Positions 717-21,132 of a stretch of DNA of 25,751 nt are shown in pieces; position 1 is the first letter of the stretch; each line of letters starts with the position of its first letter. Under the pieces are notes generated by a model. That model saw only the letters and a list, made by a program, of their open reading frames with translations. It searched no databases and had not been told where the DNA came from. The translations under genes were made by a program, and so were the position numbers. The stretch covers positions 1-25,751 of IMG/VR virus record IMGVR_UViG_3300034190_000781. The stretch is one strand, 5' to 3'. This stretch comes from a virus.

Positions 717-745
717 AGTATAACATAATAATAGTTAAATGTCAA
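717..745 (-). promoter_or_regulatory. sigma70-like promoter for the HTH gene
   Basis: Minus-strand TTGACA (745-740), a 17-nt spacer, then TATACT (722-717). Predicted start is near 710, giving a leader of about 48 nt before the ATG at 662. It lies directly downstream of the tmRNA coding piece. Confidence 0.8.
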
Positions 746-812
746 TACCCTTTCAAGGTGGTAGGTTATTCTGTTGCCAAGGAACCTACCGAAACTCCTG
801 CACACTTACTGC

Positions 813-851
813 TTACGCAGCGAGTGCCAATGGTGCAAAGTTATCGTTTGC
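813..851 (-). other. tmRNA proteolysis-tag reading frame
   Basis: From the resume codon GCA (851-849), the frame reads ANDNFAPLALAA then TAA (815-813). The ANDN start and LAA-type end match alphaproteobacterial SsrA tags (with the charging Ala added first), which direct rescued proteins to ClpXP. The stop lies in a small stem, CTGC-GTAA-GCAG, as in the tag-stop hairpin of other tmRNAs. Confidence 0.9.
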
Positions 852-933
852 ATTTACTAAATTGACCAATAACGCAGTCATCCGACAATTCTCCACTCAT
901 CTATTCCAGCCTGTCGATCCTATTTCGCCCCCA

Positions 934-1068
934 TCAAAAAGAGATTTTACCATAACCTAGTAACAGAGCTATGATACCAGAAATGAGAATGACATCAGCG
1001 CATATACTCCAAAGAATATATAACTTAAACATCGCCACCGATATTTTTTTTACAAGAGGATTCTTCAT
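934..1068 (-). CDS. 44-aa membrane protein inside the tmRNA spacer
   Basis: The sequence starts MKNPLVKKISVAMFKLYILW and continues with a hydrophobic segment (about 15-39), ending GYGKISF. It has a positive N-terminus and one transmembrane helix. AGGGG lies 6 nt before the ATG. The TGA ends at 934, two bases before the 5' end of the tmRNA coding piece (932), so the ORF fills the spacer between the tmRNA halves. Function unknown; a holin-like or toxin-like role is only a guess. It could be a chance ORF, but the Shine-Dalgarno site and hydrophobic profile argue otherwise. Confidence 0.5.
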   Translation of the reverse strand: MKNPLVKKISVAMFKLYILWSICADVILISGIIALLLGYGKISF

Positions 1069-1096
1069 CTGAGTCCCCTGATGTCATCTCTTTCAT
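1025..1096 (-). CDS. Possible 23-aa leader peptide in the tmRNA spacer
   Basis: The acidic peptide MKEMTSGDSDEESSCKKNIG plus GDV has a strong AAGGAG site right after the tmRNA CCA end. It overlaps the start of the 44-aa ORF in another frame. It may be a leader that controls translation of the membrane protein, or spurious. Confidence 0.25.
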   Translation of the reverse strand: MKEMTSGDSDEESSCKKNIGGDV

Positions 1097-1176
1097 ACCA
1101 ATCTCCTTTTGGTGGAGGCGGGGGGTATTGCACCCCCGTCCAGTTCTGTTTTCAATTCGTATCATCAAATTGTATG

Positions 1177-1530
1177 TTATTTATACCACGTTGCGGGGTT
1201 AAAGTCAATGCTCTTTTTGGGTTTATTTTCAATAAAAGCAGCACCCGTACCCGTAGATAATGAACATAACCAATTCGGTTTTGGCATCTCTAATACAGAG
1301 GTTGTACCCTTTTCCCAATTTGCATATAGGAATACAGGAAATTGCGAAGCCGGGTCAATCCAAGCGGATACCATAACTTCATTGTGAAGTTTAACAACTG
1401 ACAAGATTACCTCTGCAGAACCACACACTATAGGTTTCTGAACTTGCACAAATGTTGGTTCTGTATCTTGTGCTAGTGTTTTACTAGACAGCAACAGAAA
1501 CACTGTCAGTGTTGCGATTAGAAATTTCAT
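1177..1530 (-). CDS. Exported protein of unknown function
   Basis: 117 aa with a clear Sec signal peptide (MKFLIATLTVFLLLSSKTLA, cleavage likely before Q21). The mature part is about 97 aa with two cysteines (C36, C89) that could form a disulfide in the periplasm. It has no lipobox. The start lies inside the end of the exonuclease gene (47-nt overlap) and is supported by GGAGAG about 8 nt upstream. I do not recognise the family. Confidence 0.8.
   Translation of the reverse strand: MKFLIATLTVFLLLSSKTLAQDTEPTFVQVQKPIVCGSAEVILSVVKLHNEVMVSAWIDPASQFPVFLYANWEKGTTSVLEMPKPNWLCSLSTGTGAAFIENKPKKSIDFNPATWYK
1178..1208 (-). promoter_or_regulatory. tmRNA promoter: sigma70-like with overlapping late box
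   Basis: TTGACT (1208-1203), a 17-nt spacer ending TGG (extended -10), then TATAAA (1185-1180). The same bases contain the full T4-type late box TATAAATA (1185-1178). Either polymerase form would start near 1172, at the beginning of the tmRNA acceptor piece. The promoter overlaps the stop codon of the exported-protein gene. Confidence 0.75.
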
Positions 1531-2590: not shown

Positions 2591-2920
2591 CTATGATAAC
2601 GCACGAATCCTTGTCGCAGAAATCTTTTCTATTTCTTCACCAAGATGTTCTTGCTCAATATCATACCCAACATCTCTACCATATGTGATATTCACTATAT
2701 TCGGAACGTGCATAATAATATAATCCTTATCATACTCATATCCGTGATTTTTAAGATCAGCAATAACGTCTGGTTGATCAAACCATCCCTCACCAGTGAG
2801 TCGAACCATTATTGCAACTTGGCCAGTCTTTGCGTGAGCTCTCTTGAAAAGTTCTCTGTGTCCTTTATGCCATGGTTGAAACCGTCCAAGCATTTGAACA
2901 GTTGGTTTGTATCTATCCAT
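2591..2920 (-). CDS. HxGH-type nucleotidyltransferase (cytidylyltransferase-like)
   Basis: 109 aa. GRFQPWHKGHREL near the N-terminus is the HxGH nucleotide-binding motif, and ISATRIR at the C-terminus is the ISSTxxR-type motif. Together they define the NMNAT/FAD-synthase/cytidylyltransferase superfamily, which moves NMP from NTP to a phosphate acceptor. It is short for the family (usually 130-200 aa). Its start lies 112 nt inside the kinase gene in another frame; M1 at 2920 is needed to keep the GRFQP strand. The acceptor is unknown. It sits beside the APS-kinase-like and sulfotransferase genes. Confidence 0.8.
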   Translation of the reverse strand: MDRYKPTVQMLGRFQPWHKGHRELFKRAHAKTGQVAIMVRLTGEGWFDQPDVIADLKNHGYEYDKDYIIMHVPNIVNITYGRDVGYDIEQEHLGEEIEKISATRIRALS

Positions 2921-3276
2921 TTTTCTATCCTTATATCATAATCTTCGGGTTCTATGAAAATCTTATTGGTATCCTCATATTTACCGACACCTATTGTTGC
3001 CATCCATATTATGAAATCTGCGTCAAACTCTCGGCGTGTTTCTTCTGTAGGACAAATGAAGTCTGCAATTGCAACTCCACCAGCCATGACCACCCCATCT
3101 GAAAGGTGTTTCATTCTCTGTGATTGTCGAATACGTCCCTTATCAGAGAAGTCCCAATCATCGTATTTCTCTCTTACTTGATCTGCATTTATCCATATAC
3201 CAAATAAACTTTTGGCCAGAGGTTCAGCAAATGTACTCTTACCTGATCCCGGCAGACCCATCACTAAAATCTTCAT
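2809..3276 (-). CDS. Adenylylsulfate (APS) kinase-like P-loop enzyme
   Basis: 155 aa. Walker A GLPGSGKST is at 7-15. The order WINADQVREKYDDWDFS, R...SQRM, ADFICPTEETR and EDTNKIFIEPE follows the APS-kinase fold. APS kinase uses ATP to make PAPS, the donor for sulfotransferases, and the gene directly follows a sulfotransferase. Start and stop share a 1-nt junction with that gene. The last 37 codons overlap the nucleotidyltransferase in another frame, so the C-terminus may be extended relative to relatives. Related P-loop kinases of other metabolites cannot be excluded. Confidence 0.75.
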   Translation of the reverse strand: MKILVMGLPGSGKSTFAEPLAKSLFGIWINADQVREKYDDWDFSDKGRIRQSQRMKHLSDGVVMAGGVAIADFICPTEETRREFDADFIIWMATIGVGKYEDTNKIFIEPEDYDIRIEKWIDTNQLFKCLDGFNHGIKDTENFSRELTQRLAKLQ

Positions 3277-3872
3277 TATTCTCCAAACTCATAATTATAC
3301 ATTTCGATGTCTTTCTCATACCACTGATGAACTTTCATTATATCTGCATCATCATAGTATTCCCAATAAGGTTTATGGTCTGTCTTGTTATAATGATTAT
3401 AATTTTGGGCCAAATCGACACCTATTTTTGGAAACAAATATTTAACTTCTTCATCATAATTCTCAAACCGTGCTATGTAATCTACATCAGTTAGATAATC
3501 ACATTGAGGTGTGTTATGATCATGAATTAGTCCGTCTTTTCTTAAATTAATATTTAACCATTCTTTAAAAGAAATATCTTCTGGGGGTTTTAATTTTCCA
3601 CCATTAAAAAAATAATTTGATAATTCTCTATCCCAAGGATTTCTTACAAAACCAAATTTGAAATACTCATCCCATTCCAAACCTAATTTTGGAAATACAC
3701 TTTCTTTTATCCAAGAAGATTCAACATGGTGAGTGTCTAGCTTTTTGCCATTACGAATTCTGCGTATAACTTTAGCACCAGAATCATGATGCAACATTTG
3801 TTTAAATATAGTCGTTCCACCAGTTTTAAACACTTTAATAAAGAGATATTTTTTAGTCGATAATATCGTCAT
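3276..3872 (-). CDS. Sulfotransferase family protein
   Basis: 198 aa. VFKTGGTTI (K16-T21) fits the 5'-phosphosulfate-binding loop, and FGFVRNPWDRELSNY (R77, R82) is the 3'-phosphate-binding motif of the carbohydrate sulfotransferase-2-like family. It would transfer sulfate from PAPS to a sugar or other hydroxyl. No signal peptide or membrane segment is seen, so it should act in the cytosol. The start shares ATGA with the lysozyme stop. The gene is clearly more AT-rich than its neighbours, a hint of recent acquisition. Substrate unknown. Confidence 0.8.
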   Translation of the reverse strand: MTILSTKKYLFIKVFKTGGTTIFKQMLHHDSGAKVIRRIRNGKKLDTHHVESSWIKESVFPKLGLEWDEYFKFGFVRNPWDRELSNYFFNGGKLKPPEDISFKEWLNINLRKDGLIHDHNTPQCDYLTDVDYIARFENYDEEVKYLFPKIGVDLAQNYNHYNKTDHKPYWEYYDDADIMKVHQWYEKDIEMYNYEFGE

Positions 3873-4312
3873 GCCAAAGCACGAATCCTGTCAACTAATC
3901 TATCCGCCCGATTGGTTACTTGACGATACCACGCCGAGTCAACCATCTCATCTGCGGCGGCATTCCAATCACGGGAATCTACACCACGTTTCATACCCTT
4001 GAATTTACTCAACCTTGGGCGTCCCATATTGAACATCATGTTAGCAATCACTTGCTGAGCTTCTTCTGGCAGATCGTCAAAGTCTTCGTAAAGGATGTGG
4101 CAGTCTCGCAAGACGTTTTCGCAATCCTGTTCGAAGGCCTCAATGACTCTGGACTCACTGACGGGAGTGCCGAGTGCCGCTCCATATTCTTCATCAGACT
4201 CAAGGACCAAATGGCCGACGCCAAAAGTAGCATAACCAAGATGGTCATTATATACCTCATATTTAACGCCCTCATCGATTTCTAGTTGTTCTCTAAGTTG
4301 TTCTAAATTCAT
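3869..4312 (-). CDS. e: T4-type lysozyme (GH24 endolysin)
   Basis: 147 aa. The N-terminus carries DEGVKYEVYNDHLGYATFGV with the T4 lysozyme triad Glu14, Asp23 and Thr29. The C-terminus has the conserved SAWYRQVTNRADR block. It cleaves the MurNAc-GlcNAc bond of peptidoglycan. No signal peptide is present, so release normally needs a holin. The stop overlaps the sulfotransferase start. Slightly shorter than T4 e (164 aa). Confidence 0.93.
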   Translation of the reverse strand: MNLEQLREQLEIDEGVKYEVYNDHLGYATFGVGHLVLESDEEYGAALGTPVSESRVIEAFEQDCENVLRDCHILYEDFDDLPEEAQQVIANMMFNMGRPRLSKFKGMKRGVDSRDWNAAADEMVDSAWYRQVTNRADRLVDRIRALA

Positions 4313-7018: not shown

Positions 7019-7542
7019 GGATTTTTTCTACTCTTAGGAACGTCCCAAACAAATGTCAACCTATCAACATCACCATTGTTGTATGACATATGTGGACGTT
7101 TATTGTCAAACCAAAAAAATGTGCCGGGTTCGATCTGGTGTGACTCATCTTCAACTGTGTACAAATATGTACCCTGCAAAGATAGATGATACCTATCCCG
7201 TGTCAGATAGTAATCACCTTCATCAACATGCAGACCTAGTGTATCACCCGGCCTCAACCTAAAAAATGCTGCTCGTGAATGTCGATGTAGTTTATAAGTC
7301 TTTAACCATTTCCTGATAGCAGGATAACGATAGTACATCGGCGTGTTCTGTTGTAGAACAGTCTTCTTAGGATCATCGTCAGGATGTTTCACCGCAGCCA
7401 TAGTGAGAGGCAAAAACCCATATGGTTTTGTATCCCCAGCAGCGCCTTGTAGTGACCCTGCGACAGCCCAATCCTCTTCTTTAATATCAGCGAGGATGGC
7501 ACTTACATCAATATTCTTTTCAATAAATCTGAAATGACTCAT
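7015..7542 (-). CDS. Aspartyl/asparaginyl beta-hydroxylase-like oxygenase
   Basis: 175 aa from the ATG at 7542, which shares ATGA with the upstream hydrolase stop; starts further upstream lie inside that gene. The fold residues are H105-V-D107 (LGLHVDEGD), H151 (NKRPHMSYNNGD) and R161 (DRLTFVWDV). Similar enzymes hydroxylate Asp or Asn side chains. It is recognisably related to the oxygenase at 21699-22304. Confidence 0.87.
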   Translation of the reverse strand: MSHFRFIEKNIDVSAILADIKEEDWAVAGSLQGAAGDTKPYGFLPLTMAAVKHPDDDPKKTVLQQNTPMYYRYPAIRKWLKTYKLHRHSRAAFFRLRPGDTLGLHVDEGDYYLTRDRYHLSLQGTYLYTVEDESHQIEPGTFFWFDNKRPHMSYNNGDVDRLTFVWDVPKSRKNP

Positions 7543-8048
7543 CGTTTCCATTTGTAGAAAATATGATCTTGTATTTCTACAGTCCTTGTTTTGGTCTTTG
7601 CCCATGCGGGTGACACATAGTCTGCATGGTAATGTGTTGCGCCATCAGTAATATCATAGAACGGCAGTTCATTTGATAAGATAGAATCAGCAAGACTCAA
7701 CATCTTATTATATGTAGTCTTGCTCTTTGGTTTGTCTGATTTACCATCACAGAACCATGAGAATTGACATCGATGCTTGACAGGAATTTTTACTTTGGGG
7801 TCTTTCCAAGATGGTCTAGTTGGTCCTTCTTGCACCACTTCACAGATTGTATTAGGAAACCTGTCATCATTTACACGATTAAGAACAACCGCCGTGACCG
7901 CCATCCATCCGGCAGTTCCTTGGTTCCTTGCTTCATAATACATGTTCTTTGCAAGACAAGTTGCAGACTCATCATATTGAACAGTGGGTGGATTAGGAGT
8001 TCCTACAACAATCGCAGTCCCAATTATAAATGCTTCAAGTCCGTTCAT
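7539..8048 (-). CDS. SleB-like cell-wall hydrolase
   Basis: 169 aa. A short hydrophobic N-terminus (LEAFIIGTAIVVG) could be a signal or anchor. The body has the hydrolase-2 pattern: LAKNMYYEARNQGTAGWMAV, AVVLNRVNDDRFPNTICEVV, QFSWFCDG and THYHADYVSPAW. SleB/CwlJ enzymes cleave peptidoglycan. With the T4-type lysozyme this gives the phage two muralytic enzymes, one possibly exported. Confidence 0.87.
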   Translation of the reverse strand: MNGLEAFIIGTAIVVGTPNPPTVQYDESATCLAKNMYYEARNQGTAGWMAVTAVVLNRVNDDRFPNTICEVVQEGPTRPSWKDPKVKIPVKHRCQFSWFCDGKSDKPKSKTTYNKMLSLADSILSNELPFYDITDGATHYHADYVSPAWAKTKTRTVEIQDHIFYKWKR

Positions 8049-14032: not shown

Positions 14033-14410
14033 TCATCCTCGCCTCATCTTTGCAACTTCTTCAGCAGACTTCTTGTTCCGTACCGGCACAGCATTGGACT
14101 TGTGCATCTGTGCAATACCAATGATCTCAGTACCAGTGTAAACATTCTCTGGTTTCTTTGACATAGAAGAATTATAAGTAGGTTTGCAGGACTCTAATTT
14201 GGCGCACTCGGCAGGACTCGAACCTGCGACCCACGGTTTAGAAGACCGTTGCTCTGTTCCAGCTGAGCTACGAGTGCCTACACCCATCTTCTTGAGAAAT
14301 TTTGCGTGTTTACGCTCTGCCTCTAAGACAGACTTGGACTTCTTCTTCTGTTTGCGCTTGCGTGTATTCGTAGTCGAATAATACACAGGCAATAAATGCA
14401 TACCGCTCAT
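14033..14410 (-). CDS. Phage protein gene interrupted in frame by a tRNA
   Basis: A 125-aa reading frame in three parts. Residues 1-44 are basic (KSKSVLEAERKHAKFLKKMG). About 45-70 are encoded by the tRNA-Arg gene (GTEQRSSKPWVAGSSPA). The tail is YTGTEIIGIAQMHKSNAVPV, ending VAKMRRG. From memory, the N-terminal and C-terminal patterns belong to one conserved marine-phage family, so a 78-nt tRNA appears inserted without breaking frame. The promoter at 14418-14446 would start near the ATG, making an almost leaderless mRNA. The protein may or may not still be made. Confidence 0.6.
   Translation of the reverse strand: MSGMHLLPVYYSTTNTRKRKQKKKSKSVLEAERKHAKFLKKMGVGTRSSAGTEQRSSKPWVAGSSPAECAKLESCKPTYNSSMSKKPENVYTGTEIIGIAQMHKSNAVPVRNKKSAEEVAKMRRG
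14200..14277 (-). tRNA. tRNA-Arg (anticodon UCU), CCA encoded
   Basis: The complete cloverleaf is 78 nt including CCA. Acceptor GCACTCG/CGAGTGC, D-stem GCTC/GAGC, anticodon stem ACGGT/ACCGT with loop CTTCTAA (anticodon TCT), variable loop GGGTC, T-stem GCAGG/CCTGC with loop TTCGAGT, G73 and CCA. It decodes AGA (and AGG). It is nested in the 125-aa reading frame on the same strand, with a promoter about 140 nt upstream. Confidence 0.97.
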
Positions 14411-14711: not shown

Positions 14712-14740
14712 AGTATACACAAAAAAAAGAGTCTTGTCAA
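14712..14740 (-). promoter_or_regulatory. sigma70-like promoter embedded in a terminator
   Basis: TTGACA (14740-14735), a 17-nt spacer containing an eight-T run, then TATACT (14717-14712). The start near 14705 gives a leader of about 32 nt. The -35 lies inside the terminator hairpin of the cyclase transcript. Confidence 0.75.
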
Positions 14741-14758: not shown

Positions 14759-16810
14759 TTATTTAGTTGTGGCTATGAACACACCGTTCCAATCTTTGTC
14801 TAGTGGTTGAGTCTTCATGAACTCACATCGTTCAATCCACATGGTATAGTAGTTTCTCATTCTTCCATCAAACTCTACACTCAAATCATTGCACAAACGA
14901 ATGGCATGGTCAAACTGCTGATTACGATAATACTCATGCATCTTTATGTGTTGGCTTTCTGCAAATCCCCAATTCGTATTCTTCATCATCCAATCCATCT
15001 CACTCAGGACGGTATAGATACGAATACCCACAGACTTACCCTTGACTGCTAGTTCATCGACCTTGAGATAGAAGAAGTCATCCTTGGTCTTGTCATAGGT
15101 GGACTCTCCTACCAGCAACAGACAACCATACTCCTTACACTTAGACTCGATACTAGCAGCAGTCGATACTGCATCACCTAGAACATCATACGAATGACGC
15201 TTGGTACTTCCCATCTCTCCAAGGTAACCAAGACCAGTATTAATACCGGCACCCATACCGACAGGAGGGCGACCTTCAGAAACAATTTTGTCATTAAACT
15301 TCTCCACTGCACTCAACATCTGTAGTCCAGTTTTCACTGCGCTCCTTGGATGGTCATCATCATCAATAGGTGCATTGTGTATGTGCATAGATGCGTCACC
15401 AATATACTTGATAACCATACCATCAGAGTCTAGAATAGGTTGCGTGATTGCATCCATATATCCATTCATGATTTCTGTAAGACCCTTAACATCATCACCA
15501 AAACTCTCACCCAAAGGTGTGAACCCACGAAGGTCAGAGAAGCAAATGCTGATCTCTTTCTTCATACCATCTTTGATGAGTGCCGGGTTTTCCTGTAGAA
15601 GACGAACCACGGTAGGCGAAGCATATCCTGCGAACTGTTTCTTGATTTCCATCTTCTCTTTATATTCTTCCATGAACCGTAGGAAAGCAGCGATGGCCCA
15701 CACCACAAACATGGTGAGAACAGGATAGGACCAATCTACTAGATAACTGTGTTCTGTGAATAGGTAGGATGACCCATAGAATGTACCGACAAGAAATATG
15801 GGTAGTAAGACTGCACCAAAATACCATGCCATTGACAAAACCACCAGTGTTAGGATAAGAGCTCCAACACCACTAACTGCAAGTTCTGCTAGGTCTGTCC
15901 AGAATGGTCTGGTGATATTGCGACCTGTCATCATAGTTGCCAGTGATGCAGCAATGAGGTCATGGGATTGTATAGTGCCGACAGGTGTAGATACGTTACT
16001 CTCTAGTCCTGATGCAGTCATACTCAATATCACAATCTTACCACTGAGATCAGGCAACTTCTCATGCAATGCGTACACGGGTGTCTTCCACTTGAAGTCC
16101 AACCAGATATTGCCGTTGGCGTCTGTGTCGATCATCTTATACTTCGGTATGCGTAGTTTCTCCACACCAGCAATACCTGTCTTCATCTGAAAAGACACAT
16201 CACCAGCAGCTATGCGTAGAATCTCCATACTGATAGATGGAAACAATTTACCATCTGATGCAATGACCAGAGGCATACGACGAGTCACACCATCTTTCTC
16301 TGGAGAGATTACCATCATACCAACCGCATTGGCACTCTCTGCAATTTCTGGAATAGGACCAACCACGCCGGGATATCTATACACCCACGGTTGCCAATCT
16401 TCTCCAACAGTTGCAACACCACGAACCACACCAGTGTTACTCTTGTCGTTGCTGGGTATCTGTCCTATAACTGTAGGAGTCTTTTTGAGTATTCTGGCAA
16501 GTGCATCATCTTTACCAAATCTGTCTGGGTCTGCAAATAGAATAGGGACAACCACGATAGAGGCACCAGCCTGATAGAGTTCTATAATTTTGTTTGCAAC
16601 CTTGTTTCTGTCCCAAGGCCACTGACCCAATGTTCTGATTGTCTGATTGTTAATCTCTACCGTCGCTAGGTTAGAGAGAGTCATTGACTCCTGATTGCGT
16701 TGGTGTTGGTCCAGTGCTTTGAGACGCACCATGTCTAGGAACCACGGGTCTGCAAAACGCAATCCACACAATATTAAAATAACAAATAATGATATAATCC
16801 ACTTTTTCAT
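14759..16810 (-). CDS. CHASE2-domain class III adenylate cyclase-like protein
   Basis: 683 aa. TM1 (about 4-20), an extracytoplasmic CHASE2 sensor (about 25-300), three TMs (about 307-329, 331-350 and 361-379), then a cyclase domain (about 418-600) and an 80-aa helical tail. Metal aspartates are present (FSDLRGF D426, YIGDAS D472), as is the Lys/Asp pair typical of adenine recognition (K468, D542). The helix normally reading GDxVNxAxR is GDAVSTAAS, so the transition-state Asn and Arg are Ser549 and Ser553. Activity may therefore be weak, altered or lost. AAGGG precedes the ATG. It is last in the curli-like operon and probably senses a periplasmic state. Confidence 0.9.
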   Translation of the reverse strand: MKKWIISLFVILILCGLRFADPWFLDMVRLKALDQHQRNQESMTLSNLATVEINNQTIRTLGQWPWDRNKVANKIIELYQAGASIVVVPILFADPDRFGKDDALARILKKTPTVIGQIPSNDKSNTGVVRGVATVGEDWQPWVYRYPGVVGPIPEIAESANAVGMMVISPEKDGVTRRMPLVIASDGKLFPSISMEILRIAAGDVSFQMKTGIAGVEKLRIPKYKMIDTDANGNIWLDFKWKTPVYALHEKLPDLSGKIVILSMTASGLESNVSTPVGTIQSHDLIAASLATMMTGRNITRPFWTDLAELAVSGVGALILTLVVLSMAWYFGAVLLPIFLVGTFYGSSYLFTEHSYLVDWSYPVLTMFVVWAIAAFLRFMEEYKEKMEIKKQFAGYASPTVVRLLQENPALIKDGMKKEISICFSDLRGFTPLGESFGDDVKGLTEIMNGYMDAITQPILDSDGMVIKYIGDASMHIHNAPIDDDDHPRSAVKTGLQMLSAVEKFNDKIVSEGRPPVGMGAGINTGLGYLGEMGSTKRHSYDVLGDAVSTAASIESKCKEYGCLLLVGESTYDKTKDDFFYLKVDELAVKGKSVGIRIYTVLSEMDWMMKNTNWGFAESQHIKMHEYYRNQQFDHAIRLCNDLSVEFDGRMRNYYTMWIERCEFMKTQPLDKDWNGVFIATTK

Positions 16811-16811
16811 T

Positions 16812-17597
16812 TCAATTCCCTTGTGTAACGCTTACACTGCATCCCCCCACTGTCGCACAACTTTGCGATAGACTATACGATTGTGCTGTGCCGCCCTGTT
16901 GTTTTAGGTCTAGAGTTGTTGAGTAAGACCCCGAAACTGTTACTGTAGCACTGTGTGCAGCATTACCAGTTTGTACCATATCAATATTATTAGTATCGTT
17001 ATTCACAGTCAAGTTCATTGTTTTACTCACGTTACTATCTTGTCGCATGTAAATATCGTTACTATCTCCGTATATATAGGTCACCATGCTATGTTCATGT
17101 CCAGAGTTATTTGACCTTTGACTTCCTAAAAATGTATTGCTTGACCCGTGGATATCAAGTATTATAGAATGACCACCATGTTCTACTGTATCAGACGAAG
17201 CAACACCGCCAGTTGTCACGGTATATCCCTGATAAAATTTAACATCATTACTATCGCCCTGTATGTGAAATTCAAACCTGTCTCCACCACAGGTTGATTG
17301 ATTGCATAATTGTTTTACCAATAGAGAATTACTGTCGCCGTCGAGGTCACCACCCCATGATGCACCAGAGCCCCAAGCAGAAGTATATCCAACGTAACCG
17401 TCCTTACCCTCTTGTGTTATGTTGATGGTATTGTTTCCACCGCCATGACTCATATTAATTTCATTATCATTTCCATCTACATCCACAGTGATACTATTCG
17501 AATTACCAGTGGTAACTTGATTGATTATAACTGAATTGCCTGCAAAAGCAATGTTAGTCAGACTGAGTAATAGTAATGATATTAGAAGCGTCTTCAT
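16812..17597 (-). CDS. Curlin-like amyloid subunit B
   Basis: 261 aa with a signal peptide (MKTLLISLLLLSLTNIAFAG, cut near A19). The mature protein is low in Lys/Arg, rich in N, S, T, G and D, with recurring N-x-I/V-x-I/V-x-Q/G-G-x-x-N units (IINQVTTGNSNSITVDVDGN, NTINITQEG, SVSVTQGN). These resemble curlin repeats with degenerate spacing. C97/C103 and C247/C253 could form disulfides. It likely is exported through the CsgG pore and forms or nucleates extracellular fibres. It overlaps the FecR gene by 44 nt and the cyclase ATG follows one base after its stop. Confidence 0.75.
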   Translation of the reverse strand: MKTLLISLLLLSLTNIAFAGNSVIINQVTTGNSNSITVDVDGNDNEINMSHGGGNNTINITQEGKDGYVGYTSAWGSGASWGGDLDGDSNSLLVKQLCNQSTCGGDRFEFHIQGDSNDVKFYQGYTVTTGGVASSDTVEHGGHSIILDIHGSSNTFLGSQRSNNSGHEHSMVTYIYGDSNDIYMRQDSNVSKTMNLTVNNDTNNIDMVQTGNAAHSATVTVSGSYSTTLDLKQQGGTAQSYSLSQSCATVGGCSVSVTQGN

Positions 17598-18615
17598 CTC
17601 TTGTTGTTATCTCCGGCACGGGTGTACCCTGTGTAATGTTGATTGTATATCCATAGTCGTTTATCAAGTCTAGTTCTATTGTATTGTTTCCTACCCTTCG
17701 TATGATTCGTGTGCTGTTTCCGTCTACCAGTGTATTGACTTGTGTTGACTTATTGAATCCACTTGTCCTACCATCTATCAACTCTGACTGAGCCAAAGCA
17801 AGAGCAATCTGGTCAAGGATGTTACCTAGTAACTCCACATCCAAATCGTTAATGTCCAACTCGTTAAACTCAAACAGGTCTTCCTCTAGCTCATTCTTAT
17901 CTAACGCAGCAAACTCAAGAAAATCAATATCAAGTAAATTCTTGTTTGCCTTTGAGTCACTAAGCAATTTGATAAGTTTCTTCTTTGGTGGTTTGATAAT
18001 CAATAAGTTGTTAATCTGGTCTAGTGTCAAATCTAGTATCACTGGTTTGGATGGTTTTGCTTCTCCTGTACCAACCACAGTTGACTGAAATGCTTGATTC
18101 ATTATAACCTGTCCTACATCAGTCTCCACCGATATCTTACCCACTGTCCCGTCTTTATTAGGTAACAGAATAATTAAAGACTTACCAACCTCATCCACCG
18201 TCATACTGAACGCCGTTCCCAACACACCAATTCTTGCTGTTGGTGTCCGAATGTCCACGTTCTGATTATTCAGCTTCGCAATATTACCACTCGCATAACG
18301 CACCGTGCCAAGTGCAATATTCATAACCAACTTCGACCCCTTTCTAGAGTTGGGGTCATAGATAAACTCATCGATAACCAAGGCACTGTGGGCACTCACT
18401 GCTACGTTGGTGTCATCAACAAACTTGATACCAACATCGCCTTTACCAGTTTTCACCGTGTCCTTGAACTCGATATCAGAACCCTTTTGCAAAACAGAGT
18501 TTTCACCTGACCGTTCTACAGAAGCATTCCCTTTGTGTTTCACCACATTTCCAATAGCACCATAAGCACTGGTACTAAAGAGAATGATACTAATCGTCCA
18601 TAGTAATCGTAACAC
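17554..18615 (-). CDS. Exported FecR-domain protein with curlin-like tail
   Basis: 353 aa from a GTG start. Signal peptide (TISIILFSTSAYG), FecR domain (about 22-165: GNVVKHKGNASV, VSAHSALVIDEFIYDP, DIRTPTARIGVLGTAFSM), a Lys patch, then a Leu/Asp/Glu-rich helical segment (about 225-280), and a C-terminus with beta units (NNTIELDLINDYGYTINITQ, NIITITQ) like the neighbouring curlin-like proteins. FecR domains act as periplasmic binding or anti-sigma modules. Joining FecR to curlin-like units suggests it contacts the fibre or its subunits and may link them to the cyclase. Confidence 0.82.
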   Translation of the reverse strand: MLRLLWTISIILFSTSAYGAIGNVVKHKGNASVERSGENSVLQKGSDIEFKDTVKTGKGDVGIKFVDDTNVAVSAHSALVIDEFIYDPNSRKGSKLVMNIALGTVRYASGNIAKLNNQNVDIRTPTARIGVLGTAFSMTVDEVGKSLIILLPNKDGTVGKISVETDVGQVIMNQAFQSTVVGTGEAKPSKPVILDLTLDQINNLLIIKPPKKKLIKLLSDSKANKNLLDIDFLEFAALDKNELEEDLFEFNELDINDLDVELLGNILDQIALALAQSELIDGRTSGFNKSTQVNTLVDGNSTRIIRRVGNNTIELDLINDYGYTINITQGTPVPEITTRDEDASNIITITQSD

Positions 18616-19273
18616 TGTGATTTGACCCCACTGTTGTCACATCTACAGCTCCATCATAGGCACCACCCTGTGTAATTGAAAATGTGCTAGATGAACCAGT
18701 GTGATGAAGAGTTGTGTCTTGATCAGCAGCACCAGTGTGTGTTGATGTAATCGTATTACTCCCACCGATAGCTGTGATGTTCGTCACCTTCTTGTCACCA
18801 ACACCCATTGTAGCGGTGCTGTTTTCATTTACTGTAATAGTATTGCTATCGCCTGTCGCAATGATATCAATATCAGCATCATCGGTTGCAGCATTATTAC
18901 CCACGTTCACTGTTGTTGTATTTGAACTACCAGTGATTGTTTGAATAATACTATTGTCATCAGATGCAGAGTTAGCACCAACAGATACGTTAGACGTATT
19001 ACTATTACCTGTCTGATTTATTGTCAATGTCTGTGTTGCACCGACAACAGATGCAGCAATGGTGTTAGTGTTACCAACCTGATCAATGTCTAACGTCTGG
19101 CTGTCACCTGTTAGGGTAACATCAGTTGTATCATCACCGAACTTATTGGTCTGTCCATCTTGATTGATGTTTGCAGTCAGGCTCGCACCAGACTGTGTTA
19201 TGTATACGTCGCTCGCATAACTCACACTACACATAACAAAGTAAGCGAGTATTGTAAGTATGCCGGTTCTCAT
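18590..19273 (-). CDS. csgA-like: Curlin-like amyloid subunit A
   Basis: 227 aa with a signal peptide (ILTILAYFVMCSVSYA, mature from S21). The mature part is a run of about 20-residue units, e.g. TLDIDQVGNTNTIAASVVGA and TLTINQTGNSNTSNVSVGAN, with Q-x-G-x-x-N steps as in curlin (SxxxxxQxGxxNxxxxxQ) but degenerate toward the C-terminus. It has almost no Lys/Arg and no Cys in the mature part. The start overlaps the CsgG stop by ATGA. A secreted amyloid is the likely role; direct fibre formation is unproven. Confidence 0.8.
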   Translation of the reverse strand: MRTGILTILAYFVMCSVSYASDVYITQSGASLTANINQDGQTNKFGDDTTDVTLTGDSQTLDIDQVGNTNTIAASVVGATQTLTINQTGNSNTSNVSVGANSASDDNSIIQTITGSSNTTTVNVGNNAATDDADIDIIATGDSNTITVNENSTATMGVGDKKVTNITAIGGSNTITSTHTGAADQDTTLHHTGSSSTFSITQGGAYDGAVDVTTVGSNHSVTITMDD

Positions 19274-20058
19274 TTTCCTTTCTCCTTTTTAAATTTCCAT
19301 AATTCTTTTTGTTCACCTTCCTTGATAATTTCAATAACTGCTTGTTCGATTGCCTTCCTCACTGCATAGGTTGTAGACTCATTATCCGTTATCCCAGCCT
19401 CTGTCTCCAGCAATTTAGTTCCCATATCTAAAAACCTAAACACTGTGGCAGATAACTTTGTACTCAGAATAGTTTTTTGAGAACTTACTGCCAAAAGTAC
19501 TTCACCTGTCTGTACAGATATTAATCGTAAAGCCACTGTTACCATGTCCTTACGATATTCATCAGATACACCAATACCCAGATATCTTACCCCCATACCA
19601 CCTGTACTTGTATTGGTGTCATACCCAACTATGCCCCCTGTCAGCAATACTCCCGCAAACAATAGGGGTTTAATCTTTTCTGCCGTATCTCCGTCATAGT
19701 TCTTTCTTGTGTTTCGTATAATCTGTCTTTCTTTTAACAGATTTTCCAGTTCCATTCTTTCTATGACTTGAAACCACTCGCCCTTACCTGCTTTCTTTAG
19801 GGCTTGGATTAACCATATATCTCCACCTTGTGTCACTGCACTACTTAGTAATGCAAGTGATGAGCTGGATTTTCTTTGTCCTGTTACGTCATTGAACTTA
19901 TACACTGCCACCGGCACCTTACGTTCAGGTGGTGTTATGTTGTATAGTTCATCTACTAACGGCACCGTACTAGGTACAGGAGCATCCTGTGGTTGGATGC
20001 TCGCACAACTAGAAAGTAAAGTCGCCAACAGGAACAGTGATAACAGTCGTACTACCAT
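19270..20058 (-). CDS. csgG: CsgG-like curli secretion pore lipoprotein
   Basis: 262 aa. The lipobox LLSSC (Cys18) marks an outer-membrane lipoprotein. Then VPVAVYKFNDVTGQRKSSSS, QALKKAGKGEWFQVIERMEL, NLLKERQIIRNTR, LFAGVLLTGGIVGYDTNTST, RYLGIGVSDEYRKD and LISVQTGEVLLAVSSQKTIL follow the CsgG order. Length is close to E. coli CsgG (277). The ATG at 20058 gives the cleanest lipoprotein signal; 20064 is also possible. It forms the nonameric pore that exports curli subunits. It overlaps csgF by about 50 nt. Confidence 0.93.
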   Translation of the reverse strand: MVVRLLSLFLLATLLSSCASIQPQDAPVPSTVPLVDELYNITPPERKVPVAVYKFNDVTGQRKSSSSLALLSSAVTQGGDIWLIQALKKAGKGEWFQVIERMELENLLKERQIIRNTRKNYDGDTAEKIKPLLFAGVLLTGGIVGYDTNTSTGGMGVRYLGIGVSDEYRKDMVTVALRLISVQTGEVLLAVSSQKTILSTKLSATVFRFLDMGTKLLETEAGITDNESTTYAVRKAIEQAVIEIIKEGEQKELWKFKKEKGK

Positions 20059-20563
20059 TTGCATCCACAATCGTTAAATCTACGGTTTCGCTACTTTTAA
20101 CATAACTAATTGTTGTACCCTCAAACGTAACTGTGCCGGAAGTTGAAGCATCTTCTCCAAACATACTATCTACTAGTTGTTTTGAAAGTTGTGCATATAT
20201 TCTTGATTCTACATTCTTCATAAATTTAGAAAGGTTTGTATTTGCAGCATCTCGTATTGCTTGACGTTCAGCAGCTTCTTTCTTTTCTTTAATTGCTTGC
20301 GACCTTGAAAACTCTTGGTTCTCAATGGTCAAAACATGTGCGCTGTATCCCTGACCACTAAATGCGGGTGACTTCCATGTGTGAGTAAGTTCCCCAGCAT
20401 GTGAAGGTGAGAGGAATGCACATCCGAAAGCAAAGAGCGCACCGACAAATGCCCCTATCAAGAATGATTTGAGCATATCACTATCGTGCCAGATTGCCTG
20501 ATTTTTAAAGAATACATCAGAAGCATGATGACCTGTTTTTAGACTGAAAAAGTTCCTACTCAT
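20009..20563 (-). CDS. csgF: CsgF-like curli assembly factor
   Basis: 184 aa. A hydrophilic stretch (1-29) precedes a hydrophobic signal-like segment (about 31-53) ending SHA; the mature protein would start GELTHTWKSPAFSG, parallel to the GTMTFQFRNPNFGG start of E. coli CsgF that plugs CsgG. The C-terminus (RIYAQLSKQLVDSMF, SSETVDLTIVDANGSTTVIT) fits the family. AAGGAG lies 7 nt before 20563, whereas M30 (20476) has no site, so the long N-terminus may be real and is unusual. It is placed directly before csgG and overlaps it. Confidence 0.87.
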   Translation of the reverse strand: MSRNFFSLKTGHHASDVFFKNQAIWHDSDMLKSFLIGAFVGALFAFGCAFLSPSHAGELTHTWKSPAFSGQGYSAHVLTIENQEFSRSQAIKEKKEAAERQAIRDAANTNLSKFMKNVESRIYAQLSKQLVDSMFGEDASTSGTVTFEGTTISYVKSSETVDLTIVDANGSTTVITVPVGDFTF

Positions 20564-20810
20564 CCTTCTTCTCCTTTTCTATGTCACGAAGTTCCAGAAT
20601 CGTATTGATTTTCTGGTCCATTCTTATCATGTCATTATCAAGCATCCTTACTCTGTCAATTAGAGATATAGTTGTCATCGTAGCTTTGTCGAGTGCGGGT
20701 AAAATTTGTTGAGTCACATACTTCCATATAAAAAATATAAAATAACCCATACCAACAGCCATGACAACAGTTATACCTTCGTCTTGAACCGCTTTAATAA
20801 TATCTTCCAC
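20556..20810 (-). CDS. One-TM coiled-coil protein, paralogue 2
   Basis: 84 aa from a GTG start (AAAGG 9 nt upstream), giving MEDIIKAVQDEGITVVMAVG then a TM (about 13-32, ending YFIFFIWKYV) and a coiled coil (LIDRVRMLDNDMIRMDQKIN). This start makes it the same length and layout as the gene before it; an ATG at 20831 would add seven residues. The two are tandem duplicates. They may be a small membrane complex or a holin-like pair associated with the curli operon. Confidence 0.75.
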   Translation of the reverse strand: MEDIIKAVQDEGITVVMAVGMGYFIFFIWKYVTQQILPALDKATMTTISLIDRVRMLDNDMIRMDQKINTILELRDIEKEKKDE

Positions 20811-20814
20811 ACAA

Positions 20815-21093
20815 CTAATCCTTTCTGGCATCCTCCTTGCCATCGGCCGCAGACATCCTACGGACATCTGGTTTCACACCCAATACATGGCATACCAAAG
20901 AATCTAATCGCACAATTTCATTATTAAGAGTTTTGACACGGTTATCCAGCGCCGAAACCAACATATTCAAATTTGACGCCGCATCCACAACAGAAGCGAG
21001 AATATATTTTAGGAGAATAACAATAAAAACACCACCACCTAGTACAGCAGTGATGGTAAAACCTAACTCAGCAATAACACCAAAGATTTCCAT
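20815..21093 (-). CDS. One-TM coiled-coil protein, paralogue 1
   Basis: 92 aa: MEIFGVIAELGFTITAVLGG, TM (about 9-31), then LDNRVKTLNNEIVRLDSLV (coiled coil) and a charged tail (RRMSAADGKEDARKD). It shares the L-D-N/R-V-x-x-L-N/D-N pattern with paralogue 2. AGGAG is 8 nt before the ATG. First gene of the proposed curli operon. Confidence 0.8.
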   Translation of the reverse strand: MEIFGVIAELGFTITAVLGGGVFIVILLKYILASVVDAASNLNMLVSALDNRVKTLNNEIVRLDSLVCHVLGVKPDVRRMSAADGKEDARKD

Positions 21094-21132
21094 ACGGTAT
21101 TCTCCTATGGATATTTAGGTTATTCGATTCGT

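Follow-up and report, generated by a model that had tools for sequence, protein, structure and literature searches.

Why would a bacteriophage carry the parts of a curli-type amyloid secretion system, and why should a sensor cyclase travel with them? The question is raised by a marine T4-like virus, IMG/VR virus record IMGVR_UViG_3300034190_000781, whose positions 1 to 25,751 make up the 25,751-nucleotide (nt) stretch analysed here, hereafter the window. Eight minus-strand open reading frames (ORFs) at 14759-21093 of the window constitute a pelagiphage-type module of the curli or type VIII secretion system (T8SS); on balance, we favour the view that it would serve late curli-like amyloid export, with a FecR-family adaptor coupling it to a CHASE2 cyclase. 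The eight genes, in the order in which they follow one another on the minus strand, are listed below, with transmembrane abbreviated as TM and coiled coil as CC.

20815..21093, minus strand: CC1, a 92-residue protein with one TM segment, a coiled coil C-terminal to it and the C-terminal end GKEDARKD; phrog_18771 at 7.5e-25.
20556..20867, minus strand: CC2, a paralogue of CC1, given as the longest listed ORF; phrog_18771 at 3.8e-29, best stretch residues 21-98.
20009..20563, minus strand: CsgF-like protein; Pfam CsgF at 4.1e-20, phrog_35372 at 8.1e-47.
19270..20070, minus strand: CsgG outer-membrane secretion pore; Pfam CsgG at 3.4e-57, lipobox LSSC at residues 19-22 (by eye).
18590..19273, minus strand: curlin-like subunit 1 (curlin-1), with a signal peptide (by eye) and a beta-solenoid model; Curlin_rpt at 0.0047.
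17554..18615, minus strand: FecR/PupR-type protein, with the domain at about residues 22-181, a low-confidence linker, C-terminal beta strands and a terminal curlin-like strand, ITITQSD.
16812..17597, minus strand: curlin-like subunit 2 (curlin-2), weak in the window copy (Curlin_rpt at 0.35) and variable, with extra N-terminal domains in some relatives.
14759..16810, minus strand: CHASE2 sensor, TM helices, class III nucleotide cyclase domain and C-terminal tail; CHASE2 at 7.2e-36, Guanylate_cyc at 3.8e-15.

The first-pass annotation, made from the letters alone, had placed these genes here in this order, and the ORF list and the profile matches bear it out. Among the ten window proteins scanned with Pfam, the CsgG, CsgF, CHASE2, Guanylate_cyc and FecR matches exceed the curated cut-offs and both Curlin_rpt matches lie below them; a failure of such searches to support CsgF and CsgG had been named as a possible refutation, and both are supported. 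With the longest listed starts, the genes overlap by 53, 8, 62, 4, 26 and 44 nt, followed by a 1-nt gap before the cyclase, rather than by the 4-50 nt first claimed, and the true starts of CC2 and csgF are uncertain. Six of the eight genes match PHROGs families (cyclase 35576, FecR 37870, CsgG 20175, CsgF 35372, CC1 and CC2 18771), all filed under unknown function. The neighbours of the cluster are T4-like genes (a late-transcription coactivator, PhoH, ribonucleotide reductase subunits and an exonuclease), in agreement with the viral origin proposed from them. That the locus is an assembly chimera of phage and bacterial DNA is extremely improbable and was rejected: four IMG/VR contigs of other metagenomes (L004-L007) extend beyond the cluster at either end, where they have the same phage genes, and the same cluster is present in isolate phages. 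The curlin-2 region has no DNA match to the window in L004.

The cluster is not new. A first report of the phage T8SS proteins CsgF and CsgG was claimed in 2020 (PMC7029224), and the passages of PMC9599517 (2022) on the module describe the order HK-CsgF-CsgG-CsgA/B-FecR-CsgA/B-AC, with one or two genes labelled as histidine kinase (HK) and AC for adenylate cyclase, in pelagiphage podo- and myoviruses; that paper also detects curli proteins of viruses at each of the 65 GOV2.0 stations and reports their expression in metatranscriptomes. The gene set and order of the window are those of this published module, from which it differs in that its leading small proteins have no kinase domain. The proposal of a phage-borne curli-type operon with its own sensor cyclase thus holds for gene content and for a late-promoter-like box, but the belief that pore, subunits, FecR and cyclase had not been described together does not survive PMC9599517. 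The same order is found in the Pelagibacter phage HTVC008M (L002), whose CsgG is 53% identical over 82% of the query but whose catalytic domain is only 36% identical, which lacks the C-terminal cyclase tail and whose curlin-2 bears a PA14 domain (2.7e-6). It is found again in the Methylophilales phage Melnitz (L003), with a catalytic domain 86-87% identical and a CHASE2 domain of only 38% identity. An operon of the Hyphomonas sp. TMED17 metagenome-assembled genome (MAG; L087) shares csgF-csgG-curlin-FecR-CHASE2 cyclase and the C-terminal cyclase tail with the window, but has one curlin, no CC pair that could be found and a FecR without the terminal curlin motif. The E. coli csg system shares CsgG, CsgF and curlin repeats, whereas FecR and the cyclase are additions in the window.

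How widely is the arrangement kept? By tblastn against 50,697 phage records, CsgG relatives were found in 12, six of which (two HTVC008M records and four near-identical Melnitz records) match at 53% identity. Five Brevundimonas phages of about 350 kb (ON529851, ON529852, ON529853, ON529855, ON529860) have distant CsgG relatives at about 28% identity. The search of viral contigs for the same cluster, proposed in the first-pass annotation, covered the best 80 of 528 CsgG relatives, a set weighted towards close relatives and containing many near-identical loci, and some of the viral-locus counts include the isolate phages HTVC008M and Melnitz. All 38 loci with both flanks long enough have every gene but curlin-2, and 35 of the 38 have all eight. 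Where at least 5.6 kb lies downstream (44 loci), curlin-1 and FecR are present in 44, curlin-2 in 41 and the CHASE2 cyclase in 43; the CC pair is on the same strand in 66 of 73 loci with at least 1.6 kb upstream, inverted beyond the cyclase in four (L046, L050-L052) and not seen in L057, L067 and L074, whose contigs end short of the place for an inverted pair. A 157-residue ORF without a Pfam match stands between curlin-2 and the cyclase in L006 (12261-12734), and L007 has the same gap; the two clusters are otherwise nearly identical. In L008 and L009, csgG-FecR DNA is 85-86% identical to the window and several flanking stretches are 67-72% identical, as if part of the cluster had moved between related phages.

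In the genome collection, FecR, CHASE2 or CC genes accompany 9 of the best 80 loci. L087, on a 705-kb Hyphomonas contig, has neighbours that look bacterial by eye; the ORFs around L099 look T4-like by eye, and the other seven loci (contigs of 3 to 121 kb) are taken for phage contigs in bins. A wide spread of the FecR/CHASE2 curli operon in Alphaproteobacteria was considered and rejected. The FecR profile matches 101 of 289 genomes of the class at E<=1e-10; among the matches listed only that of the centre genome is near-full-length, and the next is partial (1.7e-35). Within the centre genome's family, the only one of 105 genomes matched at E<=1e-40 is the centre genome itself.

What defines the cluster as curli-like is a CsgG-family pore, CsgF and curlin-repeat substrates, the last recognised through homologues, profiles and fold. 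The CsgG profile finds E. coli-type CsgG structures in the PDB at 3.4e-62, and phmmer found no CsgF relatives among PDB sequences; CsgF itself likely starts at an internal ATG followed by a signal peptide (by eye). Curlin_rpt is matched at E<=0.01 by 27 of 37 curlin-1 rows, the window included, and by the curlin-2 homologues of HTVC008M (5.2e-8) and Melnitz (1.9e-4). The curlin-1 profile matches the curlin-repeat structure 8c50 at 4.8e-10 and E. coli CsgA (8enq) at 0.04; NCBIfam CsgA is matched at 5.4e-6, far under its cut-off. The predicted curlin-1 model is of good quality, with a predicted local distance difference test (pLDDT) value of 85 and a predicted template modelling (pTM) score of 0.83, and its best VIA-align row is the solved CsgA 8c50 (Z 19.0, root-mean-square deviation 8.8 over 196 residues), tied with SufB-type helices at Z 18.3. 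Judged from such comparisons, the curlin identity of both subunits holds through their relatives, the window copies being below cut-off. Curlin-2 exceeds 370 residues in 5 of 62 listed copies: besides the HTVC008M protein, those of L036, L078, L082 and L084 have another N-terminal extension, weakly ThuA-like in L082 (0.052), and the window copy has none. Such variable heads would fit display on a fibre.

The FecR protein offers what may be the link between fibre and cyclase. Its Pfam match is at 2.9e-6 and its best fold match is the PupR cell-surface-signalling domain 6ovk (E 6.8e-4); the FecR profile matched no FecR structure among PDB sequences. The protein has a cell-surface-signalling domain as a FecR/PupR anti-sigma regulator does, and neither a cytoplasmic anti-sigma domain nor a TM helix was found in it; one Pfam family is matched, and the sole helix before the domain, at residues 2-15, resembles a signal peptide. 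The terminal motif [IV]x[IV]xQ plus up to three residues ends all 62 viral-contig copies with a complete 3' end (60 IMG/VR loci, HTVC008M and Melnitz; 25 distinct tails). Of the 789 remaining ORFs with 120 residues or more in the IMG/VR loci, 3 have it; these counts ignore the relatedness of the loci. The same ending occurs in 37 of 55 curlin-2 and 14 of 72 curlin-1 copies, and Gln351 of FecR is invariant in 35 of 35 aligned rows. The tail is also present in the phage-type contigs L201 and L202 and, among six genome-collection copies, in L099, L102, L105 and L108, not in L084 or L087; the chromosomal L087 protein ends GSVFILE. Because it combines a signal peptide and a PupR-type domain with a near-universal terminal curlin-type strand, and has no anti-sigma domain, this protein is probably not the iron regulator of its label. 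The shared strand suggests that FecR docks on or caps the fibre. FecR adjoins the CHASE2 cyclase in L087 as well, and in a Burkholderia biofilm operon a LysM-FecR gene adjoins a CHASE2 kinase gene (PMC5192318). The tail motif is not mentioned in the passages of PMC9599517 that describe the module; the main text of that paper contains none of the words catalytic, fusion, signal peptide, PA14 and curlin.

The cyclase is a composite of two halves with different histories. Between the window and Melnitz the catalytic domain is 87% identical and CHASE2 38%, whereas the window and L008, L009, L012 and L013 share 71% in CHASE2 and 43-44% in the catalytic domain, and L032-L035 share 68% and 37%, respectively. 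Trees of 35 chosen loci, built by a quick method, rejected a catalytic-domain clade of window-like sequences with L008/L009 (approximately unbiased (AU) test, p 2e-47) and a CHASE2 clade of window-like sequences with Melnitz (p 3e-4), the clades having been named after the identities were seen and one set of identical rows, present on both sides of the catalytic-domain test, having been left free. When the window is compared with Melnitz, synonymous sites prove close to saturation in either half, and non-synonymous change amounts to 0.45 for CHASE2 and 0.11 for the catalytic domain, which indicates that the two share an old catalytic type under strong constraint. Unequal rates of the two halves contribute to the window-Melnitz contrast, but the pattern of L008 and L032 requires exchange, and on these alignments the catalytic half is exchanged independently of the sensor half. 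This exchange, too, goes unmentioned in the passages of PMC9599517 on the module. In L023 (12256-14068) the cyclase reading frame is broken into two.

The catalytic residues of class III cyclases, two metal-binding Asp, a substrate-binding Lys and the transition-state Asn and Arg, were compared across the family. None of the 53 rows, the window included, has lost either Asp or the Lys. The transition-state Asn position holds Asn in 32 of 52 rows and Ser in 20, the window among the latter, and the Arg is kept in 51 of 52, the exception being the window, with Ser (codon AGT). The window copy thus retains the metal and substrate residues of a class III adenylate cyclase and has neither transition-state residue. 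A decaying cyclase family was rejected, non-synonymous change being low and the Arg being lost in the window row only; the one-codon change from Arg to Ser may be an error of sequencing or mark one lone genome with an inactive copy.

The two leading genes seem to be a component that is specific to phages and has yet to be characterised. The 147 complete CC ORFs, redundant loci included, encode 68-144 residues (median 92) with one N-terminal TM segment and then a coiled coil. The side C-terminal to the TM segment is the more positive in 25 of 37 (4 opposite, 8 ties) and is probably cytoplasmic; relatives suggest that CC2 truly starts some 15-20 codons inside the listed ORF. By position, CC1 and CC2 are probably the genes published as 'histidine kinases'. 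That identity was rejected, since none of 32 CC1/CC2 rows matched a HisKA or HATPase_c kinase domain at E<=0.05 and the proteins are only 68-144 residues long; the passages of PMC9599517 on the module do not make this point. Six of the 50,697 phage records contain CC1, namely both HTVC008M entries and the four from Melnitz strains; these are the six with HTVC008M/Melnitz-type CsgG and represent two phage kinds.

Signals around the cluster bear on when it may be expressed, and two of them lie at its ends.

21112..21119, minus strand: late-promoter-like box CCTAAATA, upstream of CC1.
14712..14740, minus strand: sigma-70-like promoter TTGACA-17-TATACT, ahead of the next gene after the cluster.

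The degenerate late box reported in the first-pass annotation is there, with CTAAATA at 21118-21112. In the window alone this motif is not significant (5 seen, shuffle mean 3.24, 20 of 100 shuffles reaching 5); across 33 non-redundant loci, the first gene is preceded within 120 nt by CTAAATA or TATAAATA in 14, where 0.87 would be expected, an excess overstated by the relatedness of the loci, and the claim gains support. The terminator proposed at the end of the cluster fares less well: a scan listed none at 14730-14740, where a 5-bp stem followed by T's is visible by eye and falls below the scan threshold, and what stands directly after the operon, at 14740-14712, is instead the promoter, matching its consensus at 11 of 12 positions.

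Taken together, the module is probably expressed late in infection. CsgG and CsgF would form an outer-membrane pore through which curlin-1 and curlin-2, exported via Sec, would pass to build a beta-solenoid amyloid on the infected cell. Most likely, a periplasmic FecR would then dock on the fibre or the pore and signal the state of either to the adjacent cyclase through its CHASE2 domain, and the cyclase would in turn make cyclic AMP (cAMP), to whatever benefit of the phage. Sinorhizobium CHASE2 cyclases do respond via an outer-membrane barrel (PMC13001267). Several observations pull the other way. The window's cyclase copy may be inactive, given Ser at both transition-state positions. Foldseek with the curlin-1 model gave no PDB match at E<=0.001. 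The terminal strand of FecR is poorly modelled (residues 326-353 at pLDDT <50; whole model 66, pTM 0.50), and no tail was seen in L084, a phage-like copy with ambiguous bases. No clumping of Melnitz-infected cells was seen under the authors' conditions (PMC9004378), a remark beyond which the literature searched, as far as its text was available, contains no direct test of a phage curli module. None of CsgE, CsgD and CsgC, all part of the E. coli comparison, was found among the ten proteins scanned with Pfam; CsgE was not taken as defining because alphaproteobacterial modules also do without it (PMC9599517).

The scarcity of cAMP readers in SAR11-family genomes is a further difficulty, also for the changed cAMP state proposed in the first-pass annotation, and it bears on the rivals too. 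If hosts are SAR11-like, a cAMP output would have no obvious reader, because a cyclic-nucleotide-binding (cNMP-binding) domain was found in only 9 of 147 SAR11-family genomes. A MAG labelled uncultured Candidatus Pelagibacter defines the family searched, many of the 147 genomes are probably incomplete, and the cyclase search was confined to class III. A class III cyclase was found in 2 of the 147 and CsgG in 3; this rarity of class III cyclases, CsgG and cNMP-binding domains is likewise not raised in the passages of PMC9599517 on the module. The contigs of both cyclase matches carry the CC pair, CsgF, CsgG, a curlin, tailed FecR and the CHASE2 cyclase, with no second curlin recognised, and are judged to be phage contigs by the cluster and, for L201, by its other ORFs (by eye); the third CsgG match lies in the centre genome.

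Could the fibres and the cyclase be real, with FecR and the CHASE2 cyclase controlling the module by way of cAMP and a CRP-type protein of the host, much as CsgD is controlled in enteric bacteria? In model Gammaproteobacteria cAMP does lead to transcription of csgD (PMC9599517, passages on the module), but the 138 SAR11-family genomes in which no cNMP-binding domain was found, together with its absence from all 19 phage records scanned (the window, HTVC008M, Melnitz and 16 IMG/VR contigs, mostly fragments), make this rather unlikely. A lysis device, in which opening of the CsgG-CsgF pore depolarises the envelope and times release, is the published proposal for Melnitz (PMC9004378, 2022). It agrees with the late-promoter-like box, with the lack of a named holin among the families matched in the part of the window ORFs scanned, and with a weak match of the CsgG N-terminus to a spanin family (0.011), which could be explained by the lipoprotein signal alone. 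Yet the proposal rests on a lack of csgA/B in Melnitz, for which PMC9004378 lists csgF and csgG only, and the Melnitz record annotates two curlin associated repeat proteins; curlin-1 is kept in all 44 viral loci with sufficient downstream sequence; such a device would need no subunits, FecR or cyclase, and the window already has a lysozyme and an endolysin-family protein. We regard it as unlikely, if the strongest of the rivals. That the pore takes up molecules such as cofactors or siderophores during infection, with FecR as an iron-linked regulator, has been suggested in parts of PMC7029224 and PMC9599517 and draws on the FecR/PupR-type fold, but the FecR protein showed no sigma-factor-binding domain, the families matched in the part of the window ORFs scanned include no TonB-dependent partner, and two conserved curlin subunits and a curlin tail on FecR would be left unexplained; it seems very unlikely. 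Curli-like export with FecR coupling is the reading that we retain, and a bolder form of it is offered with little confidence: the phage may install a closed, host-independent envelope circuit, in which the amyloid's periplasmic FecR cap, bearing a fibre strand motif, would feed the state of fibre or pore to a CHASE2 cyclase whose catalytic half has been swapped among phage lineages. Its hosts, if they are SAR11-like, would show no class III cyclase of their own and, for the most part, nothing to read cAMP.

Other features of the window deserve a brief record. A permuted, alphaproteobacterial-type tmRNA gene with the tag ANDNFAPLALAA lies at 722-1202 (minus strand); a glutamine riboswitch is reported for the Melnitz tmRNA (PMC9004378), and none was found at E<=1 in 600-1700 here. 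Tandem genes for a nucleotidyltransferase-like protein, an APS-kinase-like P-loop kinase and a Sulfotransfer_2 protein at 2591-3872 (minus strand), the first two below NCBIfam cut-offs, may constitute a possible sulfation set on a phage. A tRNA-Arg (TCT) at 14200-14277 (minus strand) is wholly within a same-strand ORF at 14033-14410 (phrog_27048, 3.2e-16). Two likely cell-wall hydrolases are encoded at 3869-4312 and 7539-8048 (minus strand), one of them a Phage_lysozyme protein and the other, presumably SleB-like, a match to an endolysin PHROG.

Finally, what would amyloid secretion mean for a phage of minimal planktonic bacteria? The published ideas are sibling capture, a lysis pore, uptake and shielding from other phages. 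The variable heads of curlin-2 point towards fibre display, and with so few cAMP readers in SAR11 genomes a simple regulatory role is doubtful. Should the closed circuit be true, its signal would be received by a phage target or by some unknown receptor and could, for instance, time the opening of the pore or mark a cell as already infected. The FecR tail gives a directly testable mechanism, in which the tail would bind curlin and switch the cyclase.

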